A stretch of DNA of 64,000 nt, taken from positions 1-64,000 of IMG/VR virus record IMGVR_UViG_3300028883_000032, one strand, 5' to 3'. Shown here piece after piece: positions 3,799 to 56,093 of this stretch; position 1 is the first letter of the stretch, and each line of letters begins with the position of its first letter. Made by a program: the position numbers and the translations under genes. The stretch comes from a virus. Under the pieces are notes generated by a model. It made no database searches and was not told where the DNA came from. It worked only from the letters and a program-made list of their open reading frames with translations.

Positions 3799-4211
3799 AA
3801 ACAGAACATTTACAGCAATTACTTGTGTCCGGACAGTTTATAGGATCTCACATGTGCCTTGCCAAAGACATAGGATCAAACGGAAATCTCTTTGGGGGTA
3901 ACATGCTAGCTTGGGCAGACGAAATGGGTGCTATTTTTGCTAAAAAGTTTACTGGAGAACCAAAGCTCGTAACTGTTCAAATGGACGCGGTTGAATTCAC
4001 TGTTCCAGTACATGAAGGCGAAATAGTTGATTTCTATGCCGCTAACCCCAAACCCGGCCATACCAGTTTAACGTTCACTCTTGTTGTTGCCAAACCGAAC
4101 AATGCCGACGGGGTAAGACAAATTGTATTTACAACGCGATTTGTTTTCGTGGCTGTCGGCGATGATGGGCACTCCAAACCAATTGAAAGGTTTGCAGAAA
4201 AGCGCCCATAG
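3795..4211 (+). CDS. YciA-like acyl-CoA thioesterase
   Basis: A 138-residue single hotdog-fold protein resembling the YciA/BFIT acyl-CoA thioesterases, which hydrolyse acyl-CoA to free acid and CoA. Visible motifs are GNLFGGNMLAWADEMGA near residue 33 (catalytic Asp in the WxDE segment), VEFTVPVHEGEIV near residue 65 and GHTSLTFTLVV near residue 90. It starts with a four-base overlap with the upstream membrane protein. Its TAG stop codon is formed by bases 8-10 of the downstream tRNA-Arg. A lipid-related role during infection is inference. Confidence 0.75.
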   Translation: MKTEHLQQLLVSGQFIGSHMCLAKDIGSNGNLFGGNMLAWADEMGAIFAKKFTGEPKLVTVQMDAVEFTVPVHEGEIVDFYAANPKPGHTSLTFTLVVAKPNNADGVRQIVFTTRFVFVAVGDDGHSKPIERFAEKRP

Positions 4212-4274
4212 TTCAGTGGTTAGAACAGCGGACTCTAAATCCGTGTGTCCTCGGTTCAAGTCCGAGTGGGCGCA
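4202..4274 (+). tRNA. tRNA-Arg(TCT)
   Basis: Acceptor GCGCCCA/TGGGCGC, anticodon loop CTCTAAA (TCT) on stem GCGGA/TCCGT, T-loop TTCAAGT. CCA is not encoded. The first ten bases overlap the end of the thioesterase gene. Confidence 0.95.
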
Positions 4275-4287
4275 CAAAGGAGACCTA

Positions 4288-30475: not shown

Positions 30476-32785
30476 ATGTCGACTTATGACGTTAATTTTA
30501 GAATACTAAAGCTAAGAAACGAATTAAACGGACTCGGATTATCAAAAAACGCACTTGATCAAACACTTTACAATTGGGTCCAATTTAACAATAAAATAGC
30601 AAACTATTCGTTAAAATTCGGCGGATTGACTCTTATTAAAAAATTGGAATTACCACAGCAGGCTCCAGTATTTAAGAACCTATCCATAGCTTTAAAATGG
30701 GAGACACCGACAGCATTATATTCAGCTGACAGTGCCCAAGATGTAAATATATACATTTTATCAGATAGCTCTAACTTTGGTATCATCCCCACCAACAAAA
30801 TACTAATTATTCCGCCCAAACGAGATTATCACTTTTATAGTCTAACTGAGGCTGTTACAGTTGATGAGGAAAACATTGAAGAGGGGTTTCTTCAGGTTGT
30901 AGATTTTATTAATGGTATTAAAGATGATCTGCTAATTCCTTACAACATGACAAACCTGCTACCAAGCAAAGTACAAACTGAAGTAAGTTTAAGAAAGCAT
31001 TATTACGAAAACGGCCTACCCTTGGTAGACTTTAATAAGATGTGTGAGTATAGTAAAGAGCAACGAGATGAAATTGTAAACAAATGGTGTGAGCTTACTC
31101 TTCATTCCACATTTGAAAAAGCTTTTCCGAATGTATACTCTTACTACAATGATATCAAAAACTATAAATACGAAAACCCAATGTATGGAAGAATAGTAGA
31201 CGTTGCCGAACACAAAGATAATGGTGACAGATACTATATTATCGCTCTCCCAGAAAGAAAGAAGTTGGGGTTGGAAAAAATAGTAATAGAGGGAGTAAAG
31301 AATCTAAAACTAACTTCCGGTAAGATAACATCAAAATCGGAATACTGGCCATACATTGATGTTGGTAGGTATTTGTATTATCGGGTGCCTGAGATAGTAA
31401 TTAACCGTATAAAAGGAGACAGTCCTGGGGATAGGGCCATTAGGACCTATTATTACCATAACGATTATTATAGGACTGGTACACGAGACCCCTTATCAGA
31501 GATTTGGGGGATGTTCATAGACGAAAACCCCCTTCTACCTCAAAACCCAATACCTTTACAAAATCATTTAAATGACGATCACAGAAGAGTACAGGAACAA
31601 AATTTTGTAACCTTGCTAGATAATAGGCAGGTTAAAAGATTAGTTAAACAGCATGAGCAAATTCAGGATCGGCTAAAAAAAGAAGAAAAGCTGGAAAAGC
31701 TTTTAAAAACAAAGTGGGAACATAAATTTGAAATACTCAACGAAGACCCGTCGGCTTCCATACAATTAGATGACATAATATTCACAGGTAAAAGGGCGAT
31801 ATTTAGACCGCCAAACGTAGATGACCCTGAGCAGCCTATTGAATGTTCTGCCATAAAAGTAACCGACGTATTAAGAAGTCTTCTTTCTAAGCATTCTCCT
31901 GATCAAATATCGTTTCTTATGTATTTAGAGAATCTTTCTGCACATATTATTAAAAAAGTAGTAGAAGAGGGTAAAACTAATAATGTTACGGGAGTAATAG
32001 GAAACATTTCCTATAAATTACATTTTACCGAGACAGAAACAAAAACTGGCAGTTGCATGAGAAGGTACTTTATAAATGGGTATCGTGTAAACAAAGATGA
32101 AATGGCTCAAATACTAGATGCAGGGCTTTGTTTCAGAAGTACTCCAGAGTTTAATTCTTGGTTAAAAACCGTATCTAGATATTCGTTAAGAATACACGGA
32201 TTGATACAAAGAGGACTTGAGGCATCAGTTACGGATTCTTTAGCCTTTGACAACAACAAAAAATTCAATATAAAACTAACCTTGGAAAGACACGGTAGTA
32301 GGAATTATATTAAAAATGAAACCGATCTTTTTCAGATTCACGATATAAATAGGTTAGAAACAATCCAACGAGCGCGTCAGATGGATCATATAATATCCAT
32401 ACTTACCGATCCAAAAATATCAGATATTGGATACGAACATGTTACAAAAATACTCAAGGATGCCAGAAAGTACTACGAAGATGCTATTGAAAAAAGTCAA
32501 GCACTGCTTAATAAAACAATAGAGAAATATGGAGTTGTTAAAGATACAAAAAATGGCATGAATGGGTATGTAGTACAAGGAAAATTAAGATCGTATTTCA
32601 TAGAGCACAGTAGCAACGCAACCGTTTATTCATTGCCTAAAATGAGGCCTCTTTGCATAGTTGAAAAAACAGGCCACGGCAGAGATCCAAATGACCAAGT
32701 TGGCATGGATAAAATATATAATAGAATAATGATGCTGCGAAATGACCATCTTGTATTAGATAAAGTTCACACTTTAAACTTTTAA
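30476..32785 (+). CDS. large hypothetical protein
   Basis: A 769-residue soluble protein that I do not recognise. It has a charged helical, probably coiled-coil part near residues 395-425 (QEQ...KRLVKQHEQIQDRLKKEEKL) and a second helical stretch near 665-700. No signal peptide, P-loop or nuclease motif is evident. It is followed after 12 bases by the 273-residue protein and then by a JAMM/E1 pair, so it could be a substrate, scaffold or ligase-like partner of that system; this is only neighbourhood inference. Confidence 0.55.
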   Translation: MSTYDVNFRILKLRNELNGLGLSKNALDQTLYNWVQFNNKIANYSLKFGGLTLIKKLELPQQAPVFKNLSIALKWETPTALYSADSAQDVNIYILSDSSNFGIIPTNKILIIPPKRDYHFYSLTEAVTVDEENIEEGFLQVVDFINGIKDDLLIPYNMTNLLPSKVQTEVSLRKHYYENGLPLVDFNKMCEYSKEQRDEIVNKWCELTLHSTFEKAFPNVYSYYNDIKNYKYENPMYGRIVDVAEHKDNGDRYYIIALPERKKLGLEKIVIEGVKNLKLTSGKITSKSEYWPYIDVGRYLYYRVPEIVINRIKGDSPGDRAIRTYYYHNDYYRTGTRDPLSEIWGMFIDENPLLPQNPIPLQNHLNDDHRRVQEQNFVTLLDNRQVKRLVKQHEQIQDRLKKEEKLEKLLKTKWEHKFEILNEDPSASIQLDDIIFTGKRAIFRPPNVDDPEQPIECSAIKVTDVLRSLLSKHSPDQISFLMYLENLSAHIIKKVVEEGKTNNVTGVIGNISYKLHFTETETKTGSCMRRYFINGYRVNKDEMAQILDAGLCFRSTPEFNSWLKTVSRYSLRIHGLIQRGLEASVTDSLAFDNNKKFNIKLTLERHGSRNYIKNETDLFQIHDINRLETIQRARQMDHIISILTDPKISDIGYEHVTKILKDARKYYEDAIEKSQALLNKTIEKYGVVKDTKNGMNGYVVQGKLRSYFIEHSSNATVYSLPKMRPLCIVEKTGHGRDPNDQVGMDKIYNRIMMLRNDHLVLDKVHTLNF

Positions 32786-32797
32786 CCATTATTAGTA

Positions 32798-33619
32798 ATG
32801 TACAAACACGACGAACCACAGAAAATCAAATTTAGTGTTGTATCCGTAAATGGGGACGATGAATTTGAAATGTTTCCAGCGGATGCTTTGGAAGAAATGA
32901 AACGTCTAGTAAATAACCATGGAAAATGGTTATATGAAGACGGTGACATAGTAAATGTAATGGATCTTACTCCTGGAGATCTAAACCCGAATAGAGATTA
33001 CGAACTTGGAAATCTGTTAAAGGGCGGTGTAGCCATAGATGAATCATGTCGGGAGACAGAAAGCGATGGGTGCTGTTGTGAACCAGAAGGTCGCTGTGAT
33101 GAGACTTCAAAACAATTAGAACTTGGAGATCCACAAAAGTATTTTTACTCCACACAACTTAATACAGTGGATAATCAGGAATTTGATTTTATGATCTGGG
33201 TCAATGATGAAAAGAAAGAAATTACTGGCCAACTACGTAAGGATCGCGGAAGATTTTATGTAGCTAATAGAGACGACATCGCAGAGATACTATATTCTGT
33301 ACTACACAATCTGAGTGTTGTGGAGACTCGAAAAATAGCAGAACCATTGAACGTGCCGTCATATGAATTTCAATTCCGTAATACTCGTACACGTATTGCT
33401 GAAGGATACAACTTCTTTTTTGATGTTTCTGGTGATCCAATGATAACCTTAAACTACGACATTAAAGATAACATACTGACCGTTGGGATTAATAACAACT
33501 TAAGGTTTAGAGCCATGAAGCATCAACGAGAACTAAAAGCTTTTGTTGGTAAGCAAATGGTAGCATTCGGACAACAGTATGTACAGGACATGGCGAAGCT
33601 AACAGGCCTTCGCGGCTAA
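32798..33619 (+). CDS. protein with possible ubiquitin-like N-terminus
   Basis: A 273-residue protein. Residues 9-77 have a beta-hairpin (KIKFSVVSVNGDDEFEMFP), a helix (ALEEMKRLVNNH) and a strand (DIVNVMDL), and end in LGNLLKGG at residue 77, about the size and ending of ubiquitin. A Cys-rich linker follows (CRETESDGCCC), then an unrecognised domain of about 170 residues ending in TGLRG. It lies directly upstream of a JAMM peptidase and an E1-like gene, separated by a terminator. The ubiquitin-like reading is a hypothesis from sequence order; the rest has no known family. Confidence 0.45.
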   Translation: MYKHDEPQKIKFSVVSVNGDDEFEMFPADALEEMKRLVNNHGKWLYEDGDIVNVMDLTPGDLNPNRDYELGNLLKGGVAIDESCRETESDGCCCEPEGRCDETSKQLELGDPQKYFYSTQLNTVDNQEFDFMIWVNDEKKEITGQLRKDRGRFYVANRDDIAEILYSVLHNLSVVETRKIAEPLNVPSYEFQFRNTRTRIAEGYNFFFDVSGDPMITLNYDIKDNILTVGINNNLRFRAMKHQRELKAFVGKQMVAFGQQYVQDMAKLTGLRG

Positions 33620-33644
33620 TAATATTACCATTTAACGGGAGTGT

Positions 33645-33679
33645 GGTGGGTTAGATTAAGCTCTAACCCACCTTTTTTT
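33645..33679 (+). terminator. Rho-independent terminator
   Basis: GGTGGGTTAGA...TCTAACCCACC followed by seven T, between the 273-residue protein and the JAMM gene. Confidence 0.85.
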
Positions 33680-33685
33680 AATGTT

Positions 33686-34117
33686 ATGAAAAGACAAATT
33701 TACATAAAAAACAACTTAATAGAGCACTTTGATGTATTAGGAAGAGCATACTACCCACAAGAAATTTGTGGCATATTAACTGGGCGAAACTTAAATGGAT
33801 TGTATACAGTACGTAATTTTCACTGGATAGATAACATCAGTAAGGAGCCCGGTAAATGGGATTTTACAATGGATCCCGAACAATATATGGATGTAGTAAG
33901 GGCCTTTATTAGTTCCAAATTCTCGGAAGTAGTGGGTATTTTTCACACTCACCCCAATGGTCCAAGTGTTCCTTCACTTATAGACACGAAGTATGCAACC
34001 CAAGCAGGAGATAAGATACCGTGGGTAATATATTCTGTAAGAGATAAACAGACTCAATCTTGGTACTATAATGGTAAAGAATTTGAACTTATGGATGTAG
34101 AGGAAATATATGAGTAA
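33686..34117 (+). CDS. JAMM/MPN metalloprotease (deubiquitinase-like)
   Basis: A 143-residue MPN-fold protein starting at 33686, just after the terminator. The zinc site is intact: Glu26 in QEICGIL, and the JAMM signature His87-x-His89-x7-Ser97-x2-Asp100 (FHTHPNGPSVPSLID). Such enzymes cut isopeptide or C-terminal peptide bonds of ubiquitin-like proteins, and related ones sit in phage tail or cysteine-synthesis clusters. It is paired with an E1-like gene that overlaps its last eight bases, so processing of a ubiquitin-like or ThiS-like protein is likely. Confidence 0.85.
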   Translation: MKRQIYIKNNLIEHFDVLGRAYYPQEICGILTGRNLNGLYTVRNFHWIDNISKEPGKWDFTMDPEQYMDVVRAFISSKFSEVVGIFHTHPNGPSVPSLIDTKYATQAGDKIPWVIYSVRDKQTQSWYYNGKEFELMDVEEIYE

Positions 34118-34733
34118 AGTAAAAGTAGCTATTGTTGGTCTTGGGGGCATTGGTTCTTGGCTAGTCAACCATATTAATTGGTTGGTAAATAGGGGCCAAA
34201 TAGACACGTCATTAATTGAATTTCATGGATATGATGATGATGAAGTGGAAGACAAAAATACACGCTATCAATGTTTTGAGCCAGAAGATATATTTGACTC
34301 TAAAGCAGCTGCTCTTGAAATTAGATTCTTACCCGTTAGTGGAGAACACTGGTTTTTTGGACACGAAGAAAGAATTACAAATGTGGGAAAACAGCTTGGA
34401 GATGCAAACCTTATTATCTCGGCTGTCGATAACCTCAAGTTTAGAAAGGCTCTTTTTGAGTTCTGCTTGGATAAAGAGATCCACTGGTTTGATTTTCGTT
34501 CAGAAGGACGAGCTATAATGGCTCTAACCAAACACCCCTCCAACAATGTTGAAAAGCTTGAAATGTTTACTGCTGGAGATCAAGAAGAGAACGGATCATG
34601 TCAATTAGCAGCCGATTTGGAAAAAGGTTTAGTGCAACTTGGCAATCAAATTATTGCTCAAATAGGGGCTCAATACCTGCTAAACTGGTGGAGAGACATC
34701 CCTAATCCAGCACAATTTATAAGGAAGTTTTAA
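34110..34733 (+). CDS. E1/ThiF-like adenylating enzyme
   Basis: A 207-residue ThiF/E1-fold protein: nucleotide loop VAIVGLGGIGSWL (residues 7-18), acidic DDDEVEDKNTRYQCF (Asp42, Asn50, Arg52, Gln54) and Lys65 in DSKAAA, as in E1 adenylation domains. Cys164 in NGSCQLAADL could carry a thioester. It would adenylate the C-terminus of a ubiquitin-like partner. It is coupled to the JAMM gene upstream; a second E1-like gene is at 48602. Confidence 0.8.
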   Translation: MSKVKVAIVGLGGIGSWLVNHINWLVNRGQIDTSLIEFHGYDDDEVEDKNTRYQCFEPEDIFDSKAAALEIRFLPVSGEHWFFGHEERITNVGKQLGDANLIISAVDNLKFRKALFEFCLDKEIHWFDFRSEGRAIMALTKHPSNNVEKLEMFTAGDQEENGSCQLAADLEKGLVQLGNQIIAQIGAQYLLNWWRDIPNPAQFIRKF

Positions 34734-41716: not shown

Positions 41717-42559
41717 ATGAAGTTTACCTTTTTAGGCGTTGGGGGCATGTTCGCAAAAACTCTCGGCCATACCAACATACTAGTAGAGTTTACAAGCGGG
41801 TATAAGTTACTAATTGACTGTGGAAATAGAGCACCGCTTGAACTATACCAGCGAGGATTATACCCACAAGACATTAACGGGTATTATATATCCCACCTGC
41901 ATGACGACCATGTTGGAGGAATACAAGAATTGGGGCTGTTTGCATATTTCCACCCCAATTGCCATTTCAAGCCTGATTTGTTTATTGCCCAACAACTTCG
42001 TGGGGAAATTTGGAATAACTGTTTAATGGCCGGAATGTCCAGTATTGAAGGCAGTGTTATGTCCCTAGAAGATTACTTCAATGTTGTGTCTATTCCCCCT
42101 AATGGTTCTTTTGGCGTAGTAAAAGACCGCAGAGACGACTCTGAAAGCAGCGTCTTGGCCATTGATGCTAGGTTTGATGGTTGGAAATTATCCCCCGTTC
42201 AAACAGCACATTTCATGAATGGAAGAATAATTGTTCCATCCTTTGGGTTATTGTTTGAAAAAGGGGACGACAAACCAACCATTTTCATTACAACTGATAC
42301 CCAATTCGCACCCCATCAGATACAAGTGTTTTACGAAAAAGCTGATGTCATTTTCCAAGACTGCGAAGCGGCACCATATAAAAGCGGAGTTCACGCTCAT
42401 TTTGATGAGCTTGTCACTCTACCAGAAAAAATACGTAGGAAAATGTGGTTTGTACATTATCCTGATACTGTTCTCGAAGATATAAACACTTGGAAAATGA
42501 AGGCAAATGGAAGCGGGTTCCTTGGGTTTGTAAAAAAAGGACAAGAATTCGAGTTTTAA
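41717..42559 (+). CDS. RNase Z-like metallo-beta-lactamase-fold hydrolase
   Basis: A 280-residue metallo-beta-lactamase-fold protein. Metal motif YISHLHDDHVGG (HxHxDH) near residue 60; LLIDCGNR near residue 32; ITTDTQFAP near residue 195 supplies a later Asp ligand. The fold order and FTFLGVGG start resemble RNase Z and related phosphodiesterases. Because most tRNA genes here lack CCA, a 3'-end tRNA processing role is attractive but unproven; it could also cleave cyclic nucleotides. Overall 280 residues fits the short RNase Z class. Confidence 0.7.
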   Translation: MKFTFLGVGGMFAKTLGHTNILVEFTSGYKLLIDCGNRAPLELYQRGLYPQDINGYYISHLHDDHVGGIQELGLFAYFHPNCHFKPDLFIAQQLRGEIWNNCLMAGMSSIEGSVMSLEDYFNVVSIPPNGSFGVVKDRRDDSESSVLAIDARFDGWKLSPVQTAHFMNGRIIVPSFGLLFEKGDDKPTIFITTDTQFAPHQIQVFYEKADVIFQDCEAAPYKSGVHAHFDELVTLPEKIRRKMWFVHYPDTVLEDINTWKMKANGSGFLGFVKKGQEFEF

Positions 42560-42560
42560 C

Positions 42561-43307
42561 ATGAACGAAAACGAAGCAAAGACTCAACTGATCTTGAAGG
42601 GGTATGGTGGGTCCATTGCTTACGGAACAAATACCCCATCAAGTGACGTTGATTTAAGGGGGGTATTTATTCCTCCAAAGGAGTACTGGGTCGGGTTAAA
42701 GAGTGTGGATCAAATAAATTTTTCCGCAGAAGACACGACTTTCTACTCTTTACAAAAATTCTTTATGTTGGCTATAAAAGCTAACCCAAACATCCTTGAA
42801 CTATTATGGTTACGAGATAATCATTACATTTGGAAAGACGTACCAAAAGATTTCCGTAGCCTAGGAAGAAAATTGATAAGTAATAGGAATCTTTTTCTTT
42901 CAAAAAACATAAAACACACATATACCGGCTATGCCTATTCTCAACTTCATAGAATGGATAAGTTAAACAAGAACGTAGCACAAAATGCAGACCGTACAGC
43001 TCGCGTAGAGAAATTCGGGTATGATACTAAAAATGCTATGCATTTGATACGGCTACTACGTACTGGTCTGGAGATTCTTACGGAAGGCGAATTACATGTA
43101 TTTCGAGAAGATGCCCGAGACCTTTTAGCCATCAAGGATGGGAAGTATACTTACGATGAGTTGGTGGAAAAAGCCCAGCGTTACGACGAACTCATTGAAG
43201 AGGCATATGTTCGCAGCCCATTGCCACATAAACCGGATTTTAATGCTATTCAGAATCTACACATGGAGATGGTGGAAGAAGCTCTATCCATTTTAAACAA
43301 AAGGTAA
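42561..43307 (+). CDS. nucleotidyltransferase (RlaP/YcgL-like)
   Basis: A 248-residue protein with the polymerase-beta-type nucleotidyltransferase motif: GGSIAYGTNTPSSDVDLRGV near residue 15, giving GS...DxD. A helical C-terminus follows (GYAYSQLHRMDKLNKN near residue 120). This type, called RlaP or YcgL-like, is frequent in large phages and in RNA-repair gene sets. It starts one base after the RNase Z-like stop, so the two may act together on RNA. Substrate unknown. Confidence 0.75.
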   Translation: MNENEAKTQLILKGYGGSIAYGTNTPSSDVDLRGVFIPPKEYWVGLKSVDQINFSAEDTTFYSLQKFFMLAIKANPNILELLWLRDNHYIWKDVPKDFRSLGRKLISNRNLFLSKNIKHTYTGYAYSQLHRMDKLNKNVAQNADRTARVEKFGYDTKNAMHLIRLLRTGLEILTEGELHVFREDARDLLAIKDGKYTYDELVEKAQRYDELIEEAYVRSPLPHKPDFNAIQNLHMEMVEEALSILNKR

Positions 43308-44666: not shown

Positions 44667-44738
44667 GGCGCGATCGTCCAGTGGTCAGGACATCGGTTTT
44701 TCATGCCGGGAACCGGGGTTCAATTCCCCGTCGCGCTA
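44667..44738 (+). tRNA. tRNA-Glu(TTC)
   Basis: Acceptor GGCGCGA/TCGCGCT, anticodon loop TTTTCAT on stem TCGGT/GCCGG, T-arm CGGGG-TTCAATT-CCCCG. CCA not encoded. Located 26 bases before the ubiquitin-like operon. Confidence 0.9.
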
Positions 44739-44764
44739 CTATTTAATTTGGAAGACAAAGAGAA

Positions 44765-46372
44765 ATGAATCCAGAAGACGAAAGAAATACTACTTATACT
44801 CTTGGAAATATCGATCAATTTAGGTTCCAAATTGAACCTAACTTCACTGTTCGAGATGTAGAGCGGGCGAGACAACAAATAAATGCACTCGCTGCCCAAC
44901 ATTGGGGTGAAAGGTTACGTACACGACAAGAAGAGATTTTTGCACAATATCTAAACAGGCCAAATACCGAAGCACCTCAACAAGAGCTGCAAGCAGACCT
45001 GATTGGAGAGCTACGTCGCAATATGGAACACCAACAAACCGTACGTGACGATATGGCAGATGCTGCCCGTTGGGCATATGACGTGGGGGTTAGAGCAGGG
45101 CAGCTTGCTCAAGAAGAACAAATTGAAGAACAAGCCGTCGATAACCCAAATTATTTTGCTACAGAAGAAGAGTATACAAGGTATTTAGAAGAGCTGGATA
45201 CGGATACGCCTCCCTTGGTTGTGGAGGCCCCAAACCCAGAATTAATAAATATAACAAATGCCCCTGAAAAAGGAGAAACGACAACGATGGCAATAAATGT
45301 GGAAATACGCACAGCGAATAAATTTTCAGATCTTCAAAGACAAAAGATCAGAGAAATCGCTTCTGACGTGTTGGCGCCAGTAGTTGGTAAAAAAATTGTG
45401 ATAGCGCACAGAGGTAAAACTCAAAAACCAATCGAAGACGGGTGTTTCCATATTCATTGTTGGTCCTCCGTAAGAGGTAGACGAGTATATACTCCGCCCA
45501 GTGAATTATGGATATTTACTGTACAAGATCGATCAAAATCTTACAAACCGTCTGGAGACGGTTTAGCACTTAAAGCTGGACGATGGTCACACAGTGAGTT
45601 GGTAGGAAATAACCTCTACATTCATCACAATATATTTGCTGATCCCAATCGCCCATCGACGTATGATCTTGAATTGTTTAAGAAAATACTTGATGCCGTT
45701 ACACGCGCATACACAGACACTACCCCAGAATTGGATGAACTGGCAAAAACGAATTATGTAAATTTCTGCTTAAAGAGGAAAGACGATTCCATTAAACAGC
45801 TGGAAGACCGTAACGCTAAGGCACGTCAAGCTTTACAAAGTTCGGTACAAGCATCTCTACAGAAAATACGTTTGGCCAAACAGTCTCAATTTGATTTAAC
45901 TCAAGCACTGAACTCCAAACCGGCAGATATGCGTAAAAAATTTGAAATTGAGTTTGAACGTTTGTTGGAACATCCAAAAATTGTAAAAGTTAGAGTAACT
46001 AGCGGCAAGTTCATGGTTGACACGGAAACTTTATACTGTACAGATCCGCGTAGTAAGAAAGTACACGAAATCGGTAAGTTTTGCATCGAAATCAATCCGA
46101 ATACAGGTTCAATACGGTGGGATAATTTAACCCGTAAAGTGGACGGTATGCGTCGCAATATGAACGGTCCACATATTTGGGCAGATGGTCAGGCATGTAT
46201 GGGAAATACAAGTAGTTCGTTTCATTCACTTATCGCTAACTACGAACTAGCAATTGCCGCCCACCTTGCCATCGAATTTGTGGAAAGTGTAAATGTCAAC
46301 GACGGGGCCGGGGAACGTATTAATAATTGGCCTTTAGCCCCCGAAAAAATGCAAGCTAAAAAGGGTAAATAA
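44765..46372 (+). CDS. E2-like ubiquitin-conjugating domain protein (catalytic Cys)
   Basis: A 535-residue protein, first gene of the ubiquitin-like operon. Residues 1-170 are helical and charged; 175-310 form a domain shared with the next gene (GDGLALK...NNLYIHHNIF); 335-370 look coiled-coil; 390-515 are E2-like: strands around FCIEINPNTGSIRWD, then NGPHIWADGQACMGN, the PH...C arrangement of bacterial E2 families, with Cys478 as the likely thioester cysteine and His470 before it, then helices. An internal ATG at 45287 behind AGGAG could yield a shorter form (residue 175 onwards). It would take the modifier from the E1 (48602) and pass it to a target. The E2 call is from motif order. Confidence 0.75.
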   Translation: MNPEDERNTTYTLGNIDQFRFQIEPNFTVRDVERARQQINALAAQHWGERLRTRQEEIFAQYLNRPNTEAPQQELQADLIGELRRNMEHQQTVRDDMADAARWAYDVGVRAGQLAQEEQIEEQAVDNPNYFATEEEYTRYLEELDTDTPPLVVEAPNPELINITNAPEKGETTTMAINVEIRTANKFSDLQRQKIREIASDVLAPVVGKKIVIAHRGKTQKPIEDGCFHIHCWSSVRGRRVYTPPSELWIFTVQDRSKSYKPSGDGLALKAGRWSHSELVGNNLYIHHNIFADPNRPSTYDLELFKKILDAVTRAYTDTTPELDELAKTNYVNFCLKRKDDSIKQLEDRNAKARQALQSSVQASLQKIRLAKQSQFDLTQALNSKPADMRKKFEIEFERLLEHPKIVKVRVTSGKFMVDTETLYCTDPRSKKVHEIGKFCIEINPNTGSIRWDNLTRKVDGMRRNMNGPHIWADGQACMGNTSSSFHSLIANYELAIAAHLAIEFVESVNVNDGAGERINNWPLAPEKMQAKKGK

Positions 46373-47734
46373 ATGTTTGATTTTACCGCACCTATATCCC
46401 CGGGTAGTGTATTTTGTTTTTTGTCTAATTTGTCAAAAAAACAACTAGATAAATTGGACAGCATGGGTGCTACTCCAATGCCTTTTGATCTTGATGGTGA
46501 ATCCGGGATTATTGTTGATGGCTCACAGATGGGTGATATAATACGTGAATTAGACCTAGACATCCTGACAACTGATGCTACTACCTATGATGGTGTATAC
46601 AACATTTTGTGGAGACCAAAAAAAGACGGTAGAGGAAAGGCAGAAGGAAACTCAAGAATTATTTTTGAGAATTCTGAAGTTTGTAGGTGGAATGGAAAAC
46701 TTCCAACCGCTGTCATGGAAAGCTCTATTGAAAGGTTTCTTCTTCCATCTTTAAGTAAAGACGTAAAGGTTCACCTATATGTTCCGCACGGGAGTAACCA
46801 TGGCTTAATAAATAATGGGGAATTTAACATATTTATTTGGTCGGGATTGGGACGAAAGGCAGCACTGACACCGAAGAAAATGTGGGGAATACCCGTTGAC
46901 TGTAAAGATAAACCGTTTGATTATTCAGGAAGCGGGTTAGCCATTTATGAATCAGGTGGAAACATCGTAGGCGAGTTAGTACAAAACAACCTCTACATTT
47001 TTCACGATCTTGTACACATGGGTACTCAGCGCGAAAAACAAATCTTCGAGCACATACTGGAAGAAGTTGTGTATCTAACACAAAACCCAGAAGCCGGTAT
47101 TGATAGGCAGGCTCAGCATTTAGCAGAAGTATTGGCCGCTGAATATCAAAATACTTATAAAGTGAGGGAACAGCAGTTAACCACAATTGAGGATGATATT
47201 CAAAGATATAAAGCCGTGCTAGTTGAGAAGATTAGAGCAGCGGATTCTGCTAAAATGATGGTTTTGGGAGCTGAAGAAGCTCTACGAGATATTCGAAGTG
47301 TGGCCAAGGAACAATTTCTGATACTGCGCAGCAACGACAAAATTGAACGTATTGAACCGTCTGGAGATTGTGTAACAATTTACACCAAACGGTTAATTTG
47401 TACTCACCCCGTAAGTCAAAAACAATACGGCATTGGAAACTTTAAAATTATTATTCATTTAACCGGTCATCCAACTATGGTTGAATGGCACAACTTGACT
47501 AGACAGAGTGATTGCCAAGCACCCCATGTTGAACTATCAGGTTATCCCGTAGCGGGAATGACGGAAGAGATGTTCTTGGAGTTACTCGGAAATTATCAAA
47601 TAGGAATAATCGGAAACTTAGCAATTCAGTTTATAGAAACGGTAGATCCTACCCATCCAACAGCTGAACGCTTGAAAAAGTTTCCCCTTCTTAAGGAATC
47701 GATAGAAACTGATGGCAAAGAAAAAACCAAATAA
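46373..47734 (+). CDS. E2-like paralogue without catalytic cysteine
   Basis: A 453-residue protein directly after the E2-like stop. Residues 130-240 match the shared middle domain (SGSGLAIYESG, VQNNLYIFHDL), followed by a coiled coil (about 245-310) and an E2-like C-terminus (GNFKIIIHLTGHPTMVEWHN, then APHVELSGYPVAGM). At the position of Cys478 in its neighbour there is Val, so it is probably not an active E2. This resembles the Ubc13/UEV type of partner pair. It overlaps the JAMM gene by 23 bases. Confidence 0.7.
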   Translation: MFDFTAPISPGSVFCFLSNLSKKQLDKLDSMGATPMPFDLDGESGIIVDGSQMGDIIRELDLDILTTDATTYDGVYNILWRPKKDGRGKAEGNSRIIFENSEVCRWNGKLPTAVMESSIERFLLPSLSKDVKVHLYVPHGSNHGLINNGEFNIFIWSGLGRKAALTPKKMWGIPVDCKDKPFDYSGSGLAIYESGGNIVGELVQNNLYIFHDLVHMGTQREKQIFEHILEEVVYLTQNPEAGIDRQAQHLAEVLAAEYQNTYKVREQQLTTIEDDIQRYKAVLVEKIRAADSAKMMVLGAEEALRDIRSVAKEQFLILRSNDKIERIEPSGDCVTIYTKRLICTHPVSQKQYGIGNFKIIIHLTGHPTMVEWHNLTRQSDCQAPHVELSGYPVAGMTEEMFLELLGNYQIGIIGNLAIQFIETVDPTHPTAERLKKFPLLKESIETDGKEKTK

Positions 47735-48605
47735 AAAAAGAGCTGCCCAGTACTTTATACCTCACGATTTTAAAGAAGAGGTAGAAGTGCTTAACCAGTC
47801 TTCTTACTGTATATGGATGACCCCGCTAGCCTTTCAAAAAATGTGGCATTTTGTCGATATTTGTAGTCAAGAAGTTGGCTGGCTTGGATCGGTTGAACGA
47901 GAGGGAAGAAATTTCATTATAACCGATGTTTTCATGTTTGAGCAAGAAGTTACAGGGACTACAACATCTCTCGATGAAGCTGGCCAGACTAAACTTATGG
48001 AAAATTTTCTGGCACAAGAGAATGGTACAGAGCTTTATAACTCTATAAGGTTCTGGGGACATAGTCATGTTAACATGGGAACAACTCCAAGTGGTCAAGA
48101 TGAAACCACAATGAAGGAATTCGAAGAAAATGGCTGTGCGTGGTTTATAAGAGGCATATTCAACAAAAGAGGACGAGCACAGTTTGATATATTTTTATAC
48201 GACGAAGGTGTACGAGTAAACGATGTTCGTTGGGCAATTCTTGTTGAAATGCCGGAATTTGATATCCGCAAAGAGTTGGAAACTGAAATACAAAAGAAGG
48301 TTACCACAAAAAAGTATGTATATCCTTCGTACGCAGGTGGATGGGGAGGAGGAAATGGCTATGACCCTACCAAGAGGACTGGGAATGGTACTGTTAACCA
48401 CTCAGTCCACCCTACTGTAGGTCAAGGGAACCGCTCATCGTCACAGCAGGGAAATGTCTGGGACGAATTTTATACGGCAAATCCAAGCGGAACTCTTGAC
48501 CTAGATGAAGACGACGAAGGAACAACCTTTTTCAACAATAATGGAGTTGTTGAAGAACTAAAACCAGAAACTAAAAAAGAGACAAAAAAGGACAAAACTA
48601 AATGA
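47712..48605 (+). CDS. JAMM/MPN metalloprotease (deubiquitinase-like)
   Basis: A 297-residue protein. The MPN domain (about residues 30-180) has Glu54 in SQEVGWLG and the complete JAMM signature WGHSHVNMGTTPSGQD: His117, His119, Ser127, Asp130. Residues 205-297 are low-complexity, Gly/Asn- then acid- and Lys-rich, perhaps a flexible tail. In bacterial ubiquitin-like operons this enzyme trims the modifier precursor or removes it from targets. The stop overlaps the E1-like start. Confidence 0.85.
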   Translation: MAKKKPNKKRAAQYFIPHDFKEEVEVLNQSSYCIWMTPLAFQKMWHFVDICSQEVGWLGSVEREGRNFIITDVFMFEQEVTGTTTSLDEAGQTKLMENFLAQENGTELYNSIRFWGHSHVNMGTTPSGQDETTMKEFEENGCAWFIRGIFNKRGRAQFDIFLYDEGVRVNDVRWAILVEMPEFDIRKELETEIQKKVTTKKYVYPSYAGGWGGGNGYDPTKRTGNGTVNHSVHPTVGQGNRSSSQQGNVWDEFYTANPSGTLDLDEDDEGTTFFNNNGVVEELKPETKKETKKDKTK

Positions 48606-49294
48606 TCGATCCTTTACGTCACTTGGCTATTTTTGATCCTGATGCCTTTGGTCCCCGACGAGTTGATGTAATAGGTGTGGGTGCAACTGGATCAAAAGTT
48701 GTGTTGGAACTTGCAAAACTCGGCATAGTTAACATTCACGTATGGGATTATGACAAAGTCGAAGAACACAATGTTCCCAACCAAGTTTTTGGAAATGATC
48801 ATGTTGGGATGTTCAAAGTTGACGCCATATCAAAAATTGTCAAGGCACAAACTGGTATTGACTTAGTAACTCATAACGAAGAAGTAGACGGTACTCAAAC
48901 TTTTGGTGATATAGTATTCTTGCTAACCGACACCATGAAAAGCCGTAAATCAATCTTTGAGAGGGGCATTAAATATAAATTTAATGTCAAATTAATGATT
49001 GAAACGCGGATGGGAAAAGACAGCGGGCAGATATACTCCATCATTCCGACAAAACCGGATCACATCAAAAATTGGGAAAATTCCCTGTTTAGCGATGATG
49101 ACAAAGATACTGAAGTATCTCTATGTGGAAGTACAATAACTGTTGGGTCAACTGCCGGAATAATTTCGGGCCTAGCGGTTTGGAAAGTCATTGAATGGCT
49201 TCAACACGAAACCGGCAAACTGGAAAATGGAATTGCTAACGAAACAATGATTGATATTTCCCCCAAGTTAGCAGTTTATCAAAACAAATATTAA
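48602..49294 (+). CDS. E1/ThiF-like activating enzyme
   Basis: A 230-residue ThiF/E1-fold protein: VDVIGVGATGSKVV (Gly25-Gly30 nucleotide loop), WDYDKVEEHNVPNQ (Asp49, Asn57, Gln61), Lys72, and Cys175 in EVSLCGST, which could form the thioester. It lacks a separate second catalytic domain, as is usual in prokaryotic E1-like enzymes. It would adenylate the modifier encoded next. ATGA overlap with the JAMM gene. Confidence 0.85.
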   Translation: MIDPLRHLAIFDPDAFGPRRVDVIGVGATGSKVVLELAKLGIVNIHVWDYDKVEEHNVPNQVFGNDHVGMFKVDAISKIVKAQTGIDLVTHNEEVDGTQTFGDIVFLLTDTMKSRKSIFERGIKYKFNVKLMIETRMGKDSGQIYSIIPTKPDHIKNWENSLFSDDDKDTEVSLCGSTITVGSTAGIISGLAVWKVIEWLQHETGKLENGIANETMIDISPKLAVYQNKY

Positions 49295-49314
49295 CTCAGG
49301 AGTAGAATTTCAAG

Positions 49315-49524
49315 ATGGAACCTATTCAAGTACGTGTAGGAACAATTCCTGGTGGAGTCTCCGAATTTGCAATCATAGATGCAACAGTTCGTGGAGCACT
49401 TACAGCAGCAGGCCTTGAGGCGGACGGTTACAAAATCAATGTAAACGGCGTGGCAGCTAACTTAGACACACCGTTACGAGATGGTGATAATGTTCTTCGT
49501 GTTCGCAAGGTTGTTGGTAACTAA
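49315..49524 (+). CDS. beta-grasp ubiquitin-like/ThiS-MoaD-like modifier
   Basis: A 69-residue protein with the beta-grasp order: hairpin IQVRVGTIPGGVSEFAI, helix TVRGALTAAGLE, then YKINVNGVAANLDTPLRDGD and VLRVRKVVGN. The NG...DTPLRDGDNV part is the classic ThiS/MoaD/Ubl ending. The C-terminus is VVGN, so a Gly is followed by one Asn instead of Gly-Gly; the JAMM enzyme might remove the last residue. Last gene of the operon; terminator ten bases later. Strong RBS (CTCAGGAG). Confidence 0.8.
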   Translation: MEPIQVRVGTIPGGVSEFAIIDATVRGALTAAGLEADGYKINVNGVAANLDTPLRDGDNVLRVRKVVGN

Positions 49525-49533
49525 TGTTACTAG

Positions 49534-49566
49534 AAGAGCGGAAATATTTATATACCGCTCTTTTTT
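49534..49566 (+). terminator. Rho-independent terminator of the Ubl operon
   Basis: AAGAGCGG...CCGCTCTT followed by six T. Confidence 0.85.
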
Positions 49567-54760: not shown

Positions 54761-55159
54761 ATGACAAAAACTGAATTTCGAGAATTGTGGAAAGCTGCAG
54801 AAGAAAGCGGATTAGATAGATTCACTGTTATCTACTTAAGTTCCGGAGCCAAACACAATGGGCTGCTAGGAGAAATACTATTCAAACAGAATAGTATAGG
54901 AAACTCATACCCGAGTGTATTTTTTTCAGGAACGGGGCAAAGAATTACTACCTCCCTCGACAAATTAGTTGCAACGGAACAAAATTTTATTCGAACTCCA
55001 AAGGAACTGCAACCTGGATTAGAAATCTTGGTTATGGCTAATGAAGGTTCATTAGATATTGTTAATGAATCAGAAGCAATAAAGAAATTACAAAAAGATC
55101 CCAAAACAAAAATATTTACGTGTTTAATACGAAAGCAAGTTGAATTAAGACTTGTGTAA
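54761..55159 (+). CDS. hypothetical protein
   Basis: A 132-residue soluble protein (MTKTEFRELWKAAEESGLDR), not recognised. Alternating hydrophobic strands suggest a beta-rich fold. It ends just before the AlaRS-like gene. Confidence 0.5.
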   Translation: MTKTEFRELWKAAEESGLDRFTVIYLSSGAKHNGLLGEILFKQNSIGNSYPSVFFSGTGQRITTSLDKLVATEQNFIRTPKELQPGLEILVMANEGSLDIVNESEAIKKLQKDPKTKIFTCLIRKQVELRLV

Positions 55160-55173
55160 TCAAGGAGATAAAA

Positions 55174-55197
55174 ATGCTGGGAGCTCTACGGGCCTAA
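55174..55197 (+). promoter_or_regulatory. possible leader peptide of AlaRS-like gene
   Basis: AAGGAGAT precedes an ATG that opens a seven-codon frame (MLGALRA) whose TAA stop overlaps the ATG of the AlaRS-like gene (TAATG). The strong ribosome binding site belongs to this frame, so the main gene is probably translated by coupling. Confidence 0.4.
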
Positions 55198-56093
55198 TGG
55201 CCCCCCACAAAGTTATTGATGTAGTACAAGAAGAGTTTTATAAAGTAAATTTAACTTTAGACAATAATTTTAGATTGTCACCCCCAGACAAAACAACAAA
55301 TTTTACAACGGCAGGAATGCAGTGGTTTAAGAACCGCTTTAATAATCCGGACGGGACAAGATGTGGTAGCAGACAATCTTGTTTACGTACAAACGATTTG
55401 TCCTTAATTGGGGACGGGACACATTTAACCTATTTTGAAATGCTGGGAAATTTTTCATTTGGAAATAACGATTATGAACAATCGGTAGAATTGTGGCACA
55501 ATATTGTTTCTCAATTAAAAATCCCAGTTACATATGTTACGGTACACCCGTCACAAAAATACCATAAGAGAGTTTGGGAGAGGTTGCATTACCCCATAAA
55601 AGAAGACGAAAGCTGCGTGTGGTCAGACGGTAATATCGGAGGATACTGTTGTGAAATGTTTGTTAATGACCTCGAAATCGGGAATCTGGTAAATACTTCT
55701 GGAGTTTCAACAGATGTGGGTTTTGGTTTTGAGAGGTTAGTACAAGTTTATGAAAACCAAACAAATATTCATGACACAACTTTGTTTGATTGCTCTTTAC
55801 CTCCTTTTGTCAGAGACCACGTTCGCGCCTTGAATGCGTTATATCTTAACGGTATAAAACCGGGAGCAAGTGGACCAAATTACTCCGCCAAACTAATACT
55901 CAGAAGAGTACTATCTCATCTTGACCCAAAATGTTATAAGTTTGGGCACTGGTTAGAACAAGAAAAACTAATTAGTGAAGATGGTAAGTACAGAGCTAAA
56001 AAACACTTTAACCGCTATGGTATTAAAGACTATGACTTTGTTAAAGCCACATTTGGTTTAACAGCCGAAGAATATGAGGAAGTACTATCGTGA
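55197..56093 (+). CDS. alanyl-tRNA synthetase catalytic-domain-like protein
   Basis: A 298-residue protein matching the N-terminal class II catalytic domain of AlaRS: FTTAGMQWFK near residue 35, QSCLRTNDL near residue 59, HLTYFEMLGNFSFG near residue 76 (motif 2), VSTDVGFGFERL near residue 175 (motif 3) and RDHVRALNALYLNGIKPG near residue 210. It lacks the editing and C-terminal domains of the 870-residue enzyme. It might charge the phage tRNA-Ala, or make Ala-adenylate for another use. The start at 55197 overlaps the short upstream frame. Confidence 0.8.
   Translation: MAPHKVIDVVQEEFYKVNLTLDNNFRLSPPDKTTNFTTAGMQWFKNRFNNPDGTRCGSRQSCLRTNDLSLIGDGTHLTYFEMLGNFSFGNNDYEQSVELWHNIVSQLKIPVTYVTVHPSQKYHKRVWERLHYPIKEDESCVWSDGNIGGYCCEMFVNDLEIGNLVNTSGVSTDVGFGFERLVQVYENQTNIHDTTLFDCSLPPFVRDHVRALNALYLNGIKPGASGPNYSAKLILRRVLSHLDPKCYKFGHWLEQEKLISEDGKYRAKKHFNRYGIKDYDFVKATFGLTAEEYEEVLS

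Follow-up and report, generated by a model that had tools for sequence, protein, structure and literature searches.

We analysed the first 64 kb (positions 1 to 64,000; hereafter the window) of the 206,856-bp IMG/VR virus record IMGVR_UViG_3300028883_000032, and found a five-gene operon that probably encodes a reversible ubiquitin-like conjugation cascade used in phage infection, with targets most likely belonging to the replication or host-takeover stage. We put the probability of this reading at about 80%. An earlier note, made from the sequence alone, had described a complete phage-borne operon of activating enzyme (E1), paired conjugating enzymes (E2), JAMM peptidase and ubiquitin-like modifier (Ubl); conservation, structure prediction and gene neighbourhood agree with this core claim, and we regard the conjugation reading as well supported by inference. 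Five open reading frames, all on the + strand, were confirmed at 44765-49524, with intergenic gaps of 0, −23, −4 and +20 bases in order, and a hairpin closes the unit, in line with the overlaps, minimal gaps and terminator first proposed. A simple terminator scan missed this hairpin because its loop is 13 nt long.

44765..46372, + strand: E2a, 535 aa, with an N-terminal helical and alpha/beta part, a coiled coil and a C-terminal UBC (E2) domain at about 385-525
46373..47734, + strand: E2b, 453 aa, an E2a paralogue and putative UEV-like pseudo-E2
47712..48605, + strand: JAMM/MPN+ metallopeptidase, 297 aa, a predicted Ubl-processing and deconjugating enzyme
48602..49294, + strand: E1-like activating enzyme, 230 aa, with a GxGxxG adenylation domain and a single cysteine, Cys175
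49315..49524, + strand: Ubl modifier, 69 aa, beta-grasp, C-terminus RKVVGN
49532..49566, + strand: Rho-independent terminator with a 10-bp stem, 13-nt loop and T run (−12.8 kcal/mol)

Relatives were gathered with the JAMM protein alone from viral contigs and bacterial genomes (110 loci); the window and phage records from earlier searches brought the JAMM-bearing loci scored to 115. The loci were collected through JAMM motifs close to that of the window, with the viral part limited to 80 matches, and all family counts describe this sample rather than the entire family. All four component types (E1, E2, JAMM and Ubl) occurred together in 93 of the 115 loci, mostly of phage, commonly in the orders Ubl-E2-JAMM-E1 and E2-JAMM-E1-Ubl, with Ubl-E1-JAMM-E2 also present. 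Since a search using only JAMM returned loci that nearly all had E1, E2 and Ubl adjoining, the association is far beyond chance. The window operon thus represents a phage cassette of broad distribution that has an E2 family to itself. It is neither an isolated case nor a Bil operon, which corrects the first reading.

Searches of viral contigs with E2a alone or E1 alone returned no matches, nor did an E1 search of 72,556 plasmids at 1e-8; searches could not be seeded from mixed E1 or E2 alignments, given the diversity of the sequences, whereas the JAMM motif worked. The E1 tree placed the window in one group with L097 and L017 (support 96/83), close to the Obscuribacterales sequences; L017 is a viral contig of 112 kb that has two E2s. 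The phage family is widespread and apparently undescribed: we found no account of a complete phage-encoded conjugation cascade in literature that largely excluded subscription papers, and the terms JAB, ThiF, Ubl and E2-like are all absent from the main text of a survey that compared 224 jumbo phages in 2021 (PMC7824862).

The candidate catalytic residue of E2a, Cys478, sits in PHIWADGQACMG and is preceded by PH at residues 469-470, as in the PH...ACMG context originally noticed, and the cysteine is kept in 107 of 111 family E2s. The four exceptions carry I, F, G and V and are all second E2s; further second E2s retain the cysteine yet have lost the surrounding His or Gly. In a model built from 43 diverse sequences, with low-confidence N-terminal parts, predicted local distance difference test scores (pLDDT) were about 96-98 over residues 390-520 of the UBC domain, and the top eight PDB fold matches of full-length E2a were all E2 enzymes (Foldseek E values 0.03-0.36). 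A UBC fold around Cys478, on which the earlier note had staked its claim, is therefore modelled confidently. The best PDB sequence match of the E2 profile was UBE2W at HPHVYSNGHIC (E about 0.5), with the profile alignment giving the conserved PH-x7-C motif of the family the same spacing as in UBE2W. Fold and motif place E2a in the E2/UBC superfamily, albeit with weak statistics. Among 43 family E2s, no sensible family was matched in Pfam and none in PHROG. With tblastn, E2a hit Mammaliicoccus phage phi6255 inside a very large hypothetical gene, and we rejected this as a false coiled-coil match.

E2b was 28% identical to E2a over 367 columns and has Val393 (APHVELSGYPVAG) at the position of Cys478. 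It had been called a Cys-less E2 paralogue, which holds for the catalytic position but not for the protein, as six other cysteines remain.

The modifier was predicted to adopt a beta-grasp fold (mean pLDDT 90.5), its model matching Caldiarchaeum ubiquitin, SUMO and other ubiquitins, and its profile matching SAMP2 at 3e-5; the 69-residue beta-grasp modifier, the other point on which the initial proposal could have failed, thus stands as modelled. Its tail is VVGN. Among the 113 Ubl-profile matches counted, 50 had Gly-Asn within the last five residues, five ended in K/R-G-A and 28, which make up a clostridial-phage group, ended in DNA, NNA or DSA; the other 30 had other tails, many of them in a longer second protein of the clostridial group. 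None of the 113 had GG near the end, which weakens membership among GG-type modifiers but leaves the conjugation reading intact. Tandem Ubls are encoded by several relatives, and KGN or RGN recurs wherever one copy meets the next, as the L020 protein shows at residues 69, 138 and 207; together with the Gly-Asn tails, these junctions suggest that the Asn is either the working C-terminal residue or a residue cut off by JAMM.

The peptidase motif HSHVNMGTTPSGQD is intact at residues 117-130 (HxHx7SxxD), as first read, and was present in 108 of 109 family members, while E54, H117, H119, S127 and D130 showed no variation among 23 aligned, diverse members. With this Glu and motif, and a profile whose closest solved relative was RPN11 (E 1e-4), the protein belongs to the JAMM/MPN+ peptidases. 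The E1 matched Pfam ThiF at 5.2e-22, and a profile of 23 family members had UBA5 as its closest solved relative (E 6.5e-14); the adenylation domain also matched Cap2 structures and PADLOC E1-E2 models. Cys175, earlier put forward as a candidate, is the only cysteine of the protein, was conserved in all 99 sequences having that region, and occupies the position of the catalytic cysteine in UBA5 and ThiF. The GxGxxG motif, the conserved Asp/Arg/Lys set and Cys175 together mark the enzyme, at the sequence level, as an E1 of UBA5/ThiF type.

These matches also bear on a sulfur-carrier system of the ThiS, MoaD or Urm1 kind, in which the E1 would make a Ubl thiocarboxylate for thiamine, molybdopterin or tRNA thiolation and JAMM would only process the carrier. 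The E1 matches the ThiF model and the Ubl the ThiS model (the latter below cut-off), 21 tRNA genes lie in the window, and relatives in phages carry thiamine-biosynthesis annotations. Yet the cassette includes an E2 with a near-invariant cysteine, no family Ubl ends in GG, and NCBIfam ThiF/MoeB scores fall far under cut-off (the best ThiF equivalog reached 55.5 of 159 bits), which makes this explanation highly improbable.

Gene neighbourhoods pointed to the stage at which a conjugation cascade would act. Many relatives adjoin replication genes, including those for family-A DNA polymerase, DnaB/Toprim helicase-primase, SNF2 helicase and an AAA_24 protein. Flavobacterium phage FpV4, crAss-like phage cr128_1 and Dulem virus 41 (L003, L005, L006) have a similar JAMM-E1 pair, in which annotation calls the E1 a thiamine protein, ThiF or a hypothetical protein and the upstream genes resemble a Ubl and a divergent E2; the FpV4 and crAss-like pairs adjoin uracil-DNA glycosylase, primase and exonuclease genes. 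Because many relatives lie inside replication modules, and not tail or defence modules, targets of the replication or host-takeover stage seem most likely, and a role in tail assembly is disfavoured. A function in virion assembly, with structural proteins tagged or processed in the way suggested for lambda tail proteins I and K, is accordingly very unlikely: phage tail modules are known to contain JAMM and Ubl domains (PMC1779556), and a second, tail-type JAMM gene lies in the same genome at 33641-34117, but lambda-type modules are without E1 and E2, no structural gene was recognised adjoining the operon, and the relatives adjoin replication genes instead.

The second JAMM gene belongs to another possible ubiquitin-type gene set at 30476-34733, which encodes a 769-aa protein, a 273-aa protein, a Prok-JAB protein (Pfam 4e-15, PHROG tail-protein type) and a ThiF protein (1.5e-11). 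The N-terminal part of the 273-aa protein looks Ubl-like by eye, and the protein ends in LLKGG. This set is non-homologous to the main operon, except distantly in ThiF, and no phage relatives of its 273-aa and ThiF proteins were found.

We propose that the conjugation cascade would run in five steps. Any residues beyond the conserved Gly(-Asn) end of the Ubl precursor would be trimmed off by JAMM, or the modifier would serve as made; E1 would then adenylate the Ubl C-terminus and hold it as a thioester on Cys175. From there the Ubl would move to Cys478 of E2a, which probably forms a heterodimer with the catalytically dead E2b, as Ubc13 does with Mms2/UEV. E2a would transfer the Ubl onto amines of target proteins, which its coiled coil and N-terminal domain perhaps select, as no E3 was recognised, and JAMM would finally remove the Ubl from these targets. 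In prokaryotes, most of the complete ubiquitin-like cascades known are rare bacterial operons, of which several act against phages. A widespread phage family with an E2 outside Pfam and PHROGs would mean that phages tag proteins themselves during infection. Protein tagging of this sort, usually regarded as a eukaryotic trait or a bacterial defence, thus seems to belong to the common equipment of phages.

Several observations weigh against this reading. The best PDB E value for the full-length E2a model was 0.032, with none below 0.001 (Foldseek), so that the fold call draws on model, motif and context together, and the match of the E2 profile to UBE2W was below significance. E2b is long-branched in the family tree, which gives it no clear place. 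The Ubl ends in GN rather than GG, and its activation at such a tail would thus lie outside what known systems cover. The operon is flanked in the window by tRNAs, the Apyc1-like gene and ThyX, without replication genes, and all functional statements made here are predictions from sequence.

Because the operon's neighbours in the window are tRNAs, an Apyc1-like gene, an RlaP-like gene and ThyX, we give some, though limited, credence to a counter-defence role, in which the Ubl would be conjugated to host immune proteins, or a host Bil- or CBASS-type pathway would be mimicked or depleted, with JAMM stripping host tags off virions. Some 2.2 kb separate the operon from the Apyc1-like anti-Pycsar gene upstream. 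Bil-type systems are known to tag phage proteins (Hor et al. 2024, as cited in PMC12660748), so that a deconjugase would benefit the phage. A phage needing a deconjugase only would, however, have no use for an E1, two E2s and its own modifier, and in relatives the cassette is not restricted to anti-defence regions; we consider this role possible but unlikely. The earlier note had suggested host tagging, virion tagging or counter-defence, and the replication-gene context and a chromosomal version beside an AAA+ unfoldase (described below) point away from these at least as strongly.

It is rather more doubtful that the operon is defence cargo directed at competing phages (superinfection exclusion). 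Bacterial operons that combine these four enzyme types act against phages, and in a related clade of clostridial phages the cassette is followed by a reverse transcriptase gene, of a kind common in defence, but the conserved place of the cassette in replication modules of distant phages suggests a core role.

In this clostridial or gut phage clade (29 loci, including L007, L064, L073, L075-L079, L081-L089, L113-L116 and L122-L124), the reverse transcriptase gene follows E1, mostly on the same strand and within ~1 kb, and 27 of the 29 enzymes have a YADD motif. The window phage has a reverse transcriptase of its own, of the same broad family (E 5e-49), which is far from the operon (L013 17377-18303; genome 161377-162303).

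A chromosomal version of the cassette was found in Obscuribacterales, where 16 of 53 genomes had the E2 family, nearly all with at least two copies. The gene order is Ubl-E2-E2'-JAMM-E1, followed by a ClpB/C-like AAA+ protein, and flanking genes, such as MutL- and FolC-like ones, look chromosomal by eye. In the Obscuribacterales/Melainabacteria loci L099-L106 and L108, L102 excepted, a degenerate E2 regularly comes after an active one, and the two-ring AAA+ protein follows the cassette in L099, L101, L103, L104, L105, L106, L107 and L108. We sought a ClpP-docking [LIV]GF/L loop in these AAA+ proteins, but the sole hit, YVGF in L099, belongs to the pore loop, which leaves a link to ClpP unsupported. 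A search of the window's phage record for a ClpA/B/C-type AAA gene was negative. The long branch of E2b in the tree offers no choice between descent from an Obscuribacterales pseudo-E2 and descent from E2a.

We tentatively suggest, at well below even odds, that phages and Obscuribacterales chromosomes share a distinct Ubl system with its own E2 family, E2/pseudo-E2 pair and Gly-Asn tail chemistry, in which the bacteria would feed tagged proteins to the adjacent ClpB/C-like unfoldase and the jumbo phage would use the tagging half that they share to divert the turnover of host or phage proteins. If true, bacterial tagging with an AAA+ unfoldase would be a counterpart of ubiquitin with Cdc48 or the proteasome.

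The source of the record is a jumbo-size tailed phage, distant kin of everything in the phage collection. A terminase elsewhere in the record, ~28% identical to that of Salmonella phage Arash, indicates a tailed phage, and tail sheath-like and baseplate-like genes occur further along the record, as judged by eye. The operon is directly preceded by a tRNA-Glu gene at 44667-44739, and upstream lie the Apyc1-like protein, with a metallo-beta-lactamase fold (41717-42559; Pfam 3.8e-24), and the RlaP-like nucleotidyltransferase (42561-43307; Pfam 1.1e-22, PHROG 3.3e-59). The window's tRNA genes include a tRNA-Pyl call with anticodon CTA at 4202-4275, possibly an amber-suppressor tRNA. An alanyl-tRNA synthetase-like protein of 313 aa at 55152-56093 (Pfam 2.4e-20) is perhaps an AlaX-type editing protein, and a very large protein of 2046 aa is encoded at L013 9631-15768 (genome 153631-159768).

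By the features tested, the operon is not a member of the Bil, CBASS, PRTRC or lambda-tail types, and the equivalog match and GG-ended carrier of the ThiS/ThiF and MoaD/MoeB sulfur-carrier systems are also absent. Bacterial systems predicted in 2006 include Iyer/Aravind type 6d operons, with separate genes for Ubl, JAB, E1 and E2 (PMC1779556). The window operon likewise has four separate component types, but the type 6d E2 has a His after the Cys and none before it, whereas in E2a the His precedes the Cys, and the alpha-helical partner protein of type 6d, which includes PRTRC, was not recognised in the operon. No Pfam or NCBIfam match to PRTRC, Prok-E2 or Prok_Ub families was obtained for E2a, E2b or the Ubl, nor in Pfam for their relatives, and the E1 scored 36.5 bits against a PRTRC_ThiF cut-off of 144.75. 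Bil (ISG15-like) operons share the Ubl, E2, JAB and E1 and the same working principle. The Bil Ubl is a double, ISG15-like domain, whereas that of the window is a single 69-aa domain ending in GN, unlike the tandem BilA; the window operon also differs in its two long coiled-coil E2s, in being phage-borne and in not being tied to defence genes. The E1 adenylation domain matches the Cap2 structures of CBASS Cap2/Cap3 (types 6a-6c), but Cap2 is an E2-E1 fusion while the 230-aa E1 of the window stands alone, with separate E2s of another family, and no cGAS-like enzyme/CD-NTase gene, as expected beside a type II Cap2, lies within the operon. The lambda tail I/K module likewise shows that phages carry Ubl and JAMM domains, but in a tail-assembly context and without the E1 and E2 that the operon has; no tail genes were recognised in the operon flanks.

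The closest resemblances of individual proteins lie elsewhere. The HPH-x7-C motif recalls UBE2W, although the sequence match is non-significant, and the active and inactive E2s, as a putative heterodimer, recall Ubc13-Mms2, although the window proteins are much larger. The Caldiarchaeum ubiquitin/Rpn11 system and SAMP2 differ in that no proteasome or RING E3 was found in the operon and that its tail is GN rather than GG, yet the Ubl fold is closest to Caldiarchaeum ubiquitin, its profile to SAMP2 and the JAMM to RPN11. The Gly-Asn tail, the active/inactive E2 pair and the unfoldase neighbour in bacteria offer testable links to the origin of ubiquitin-E2-unfoldase pathways.

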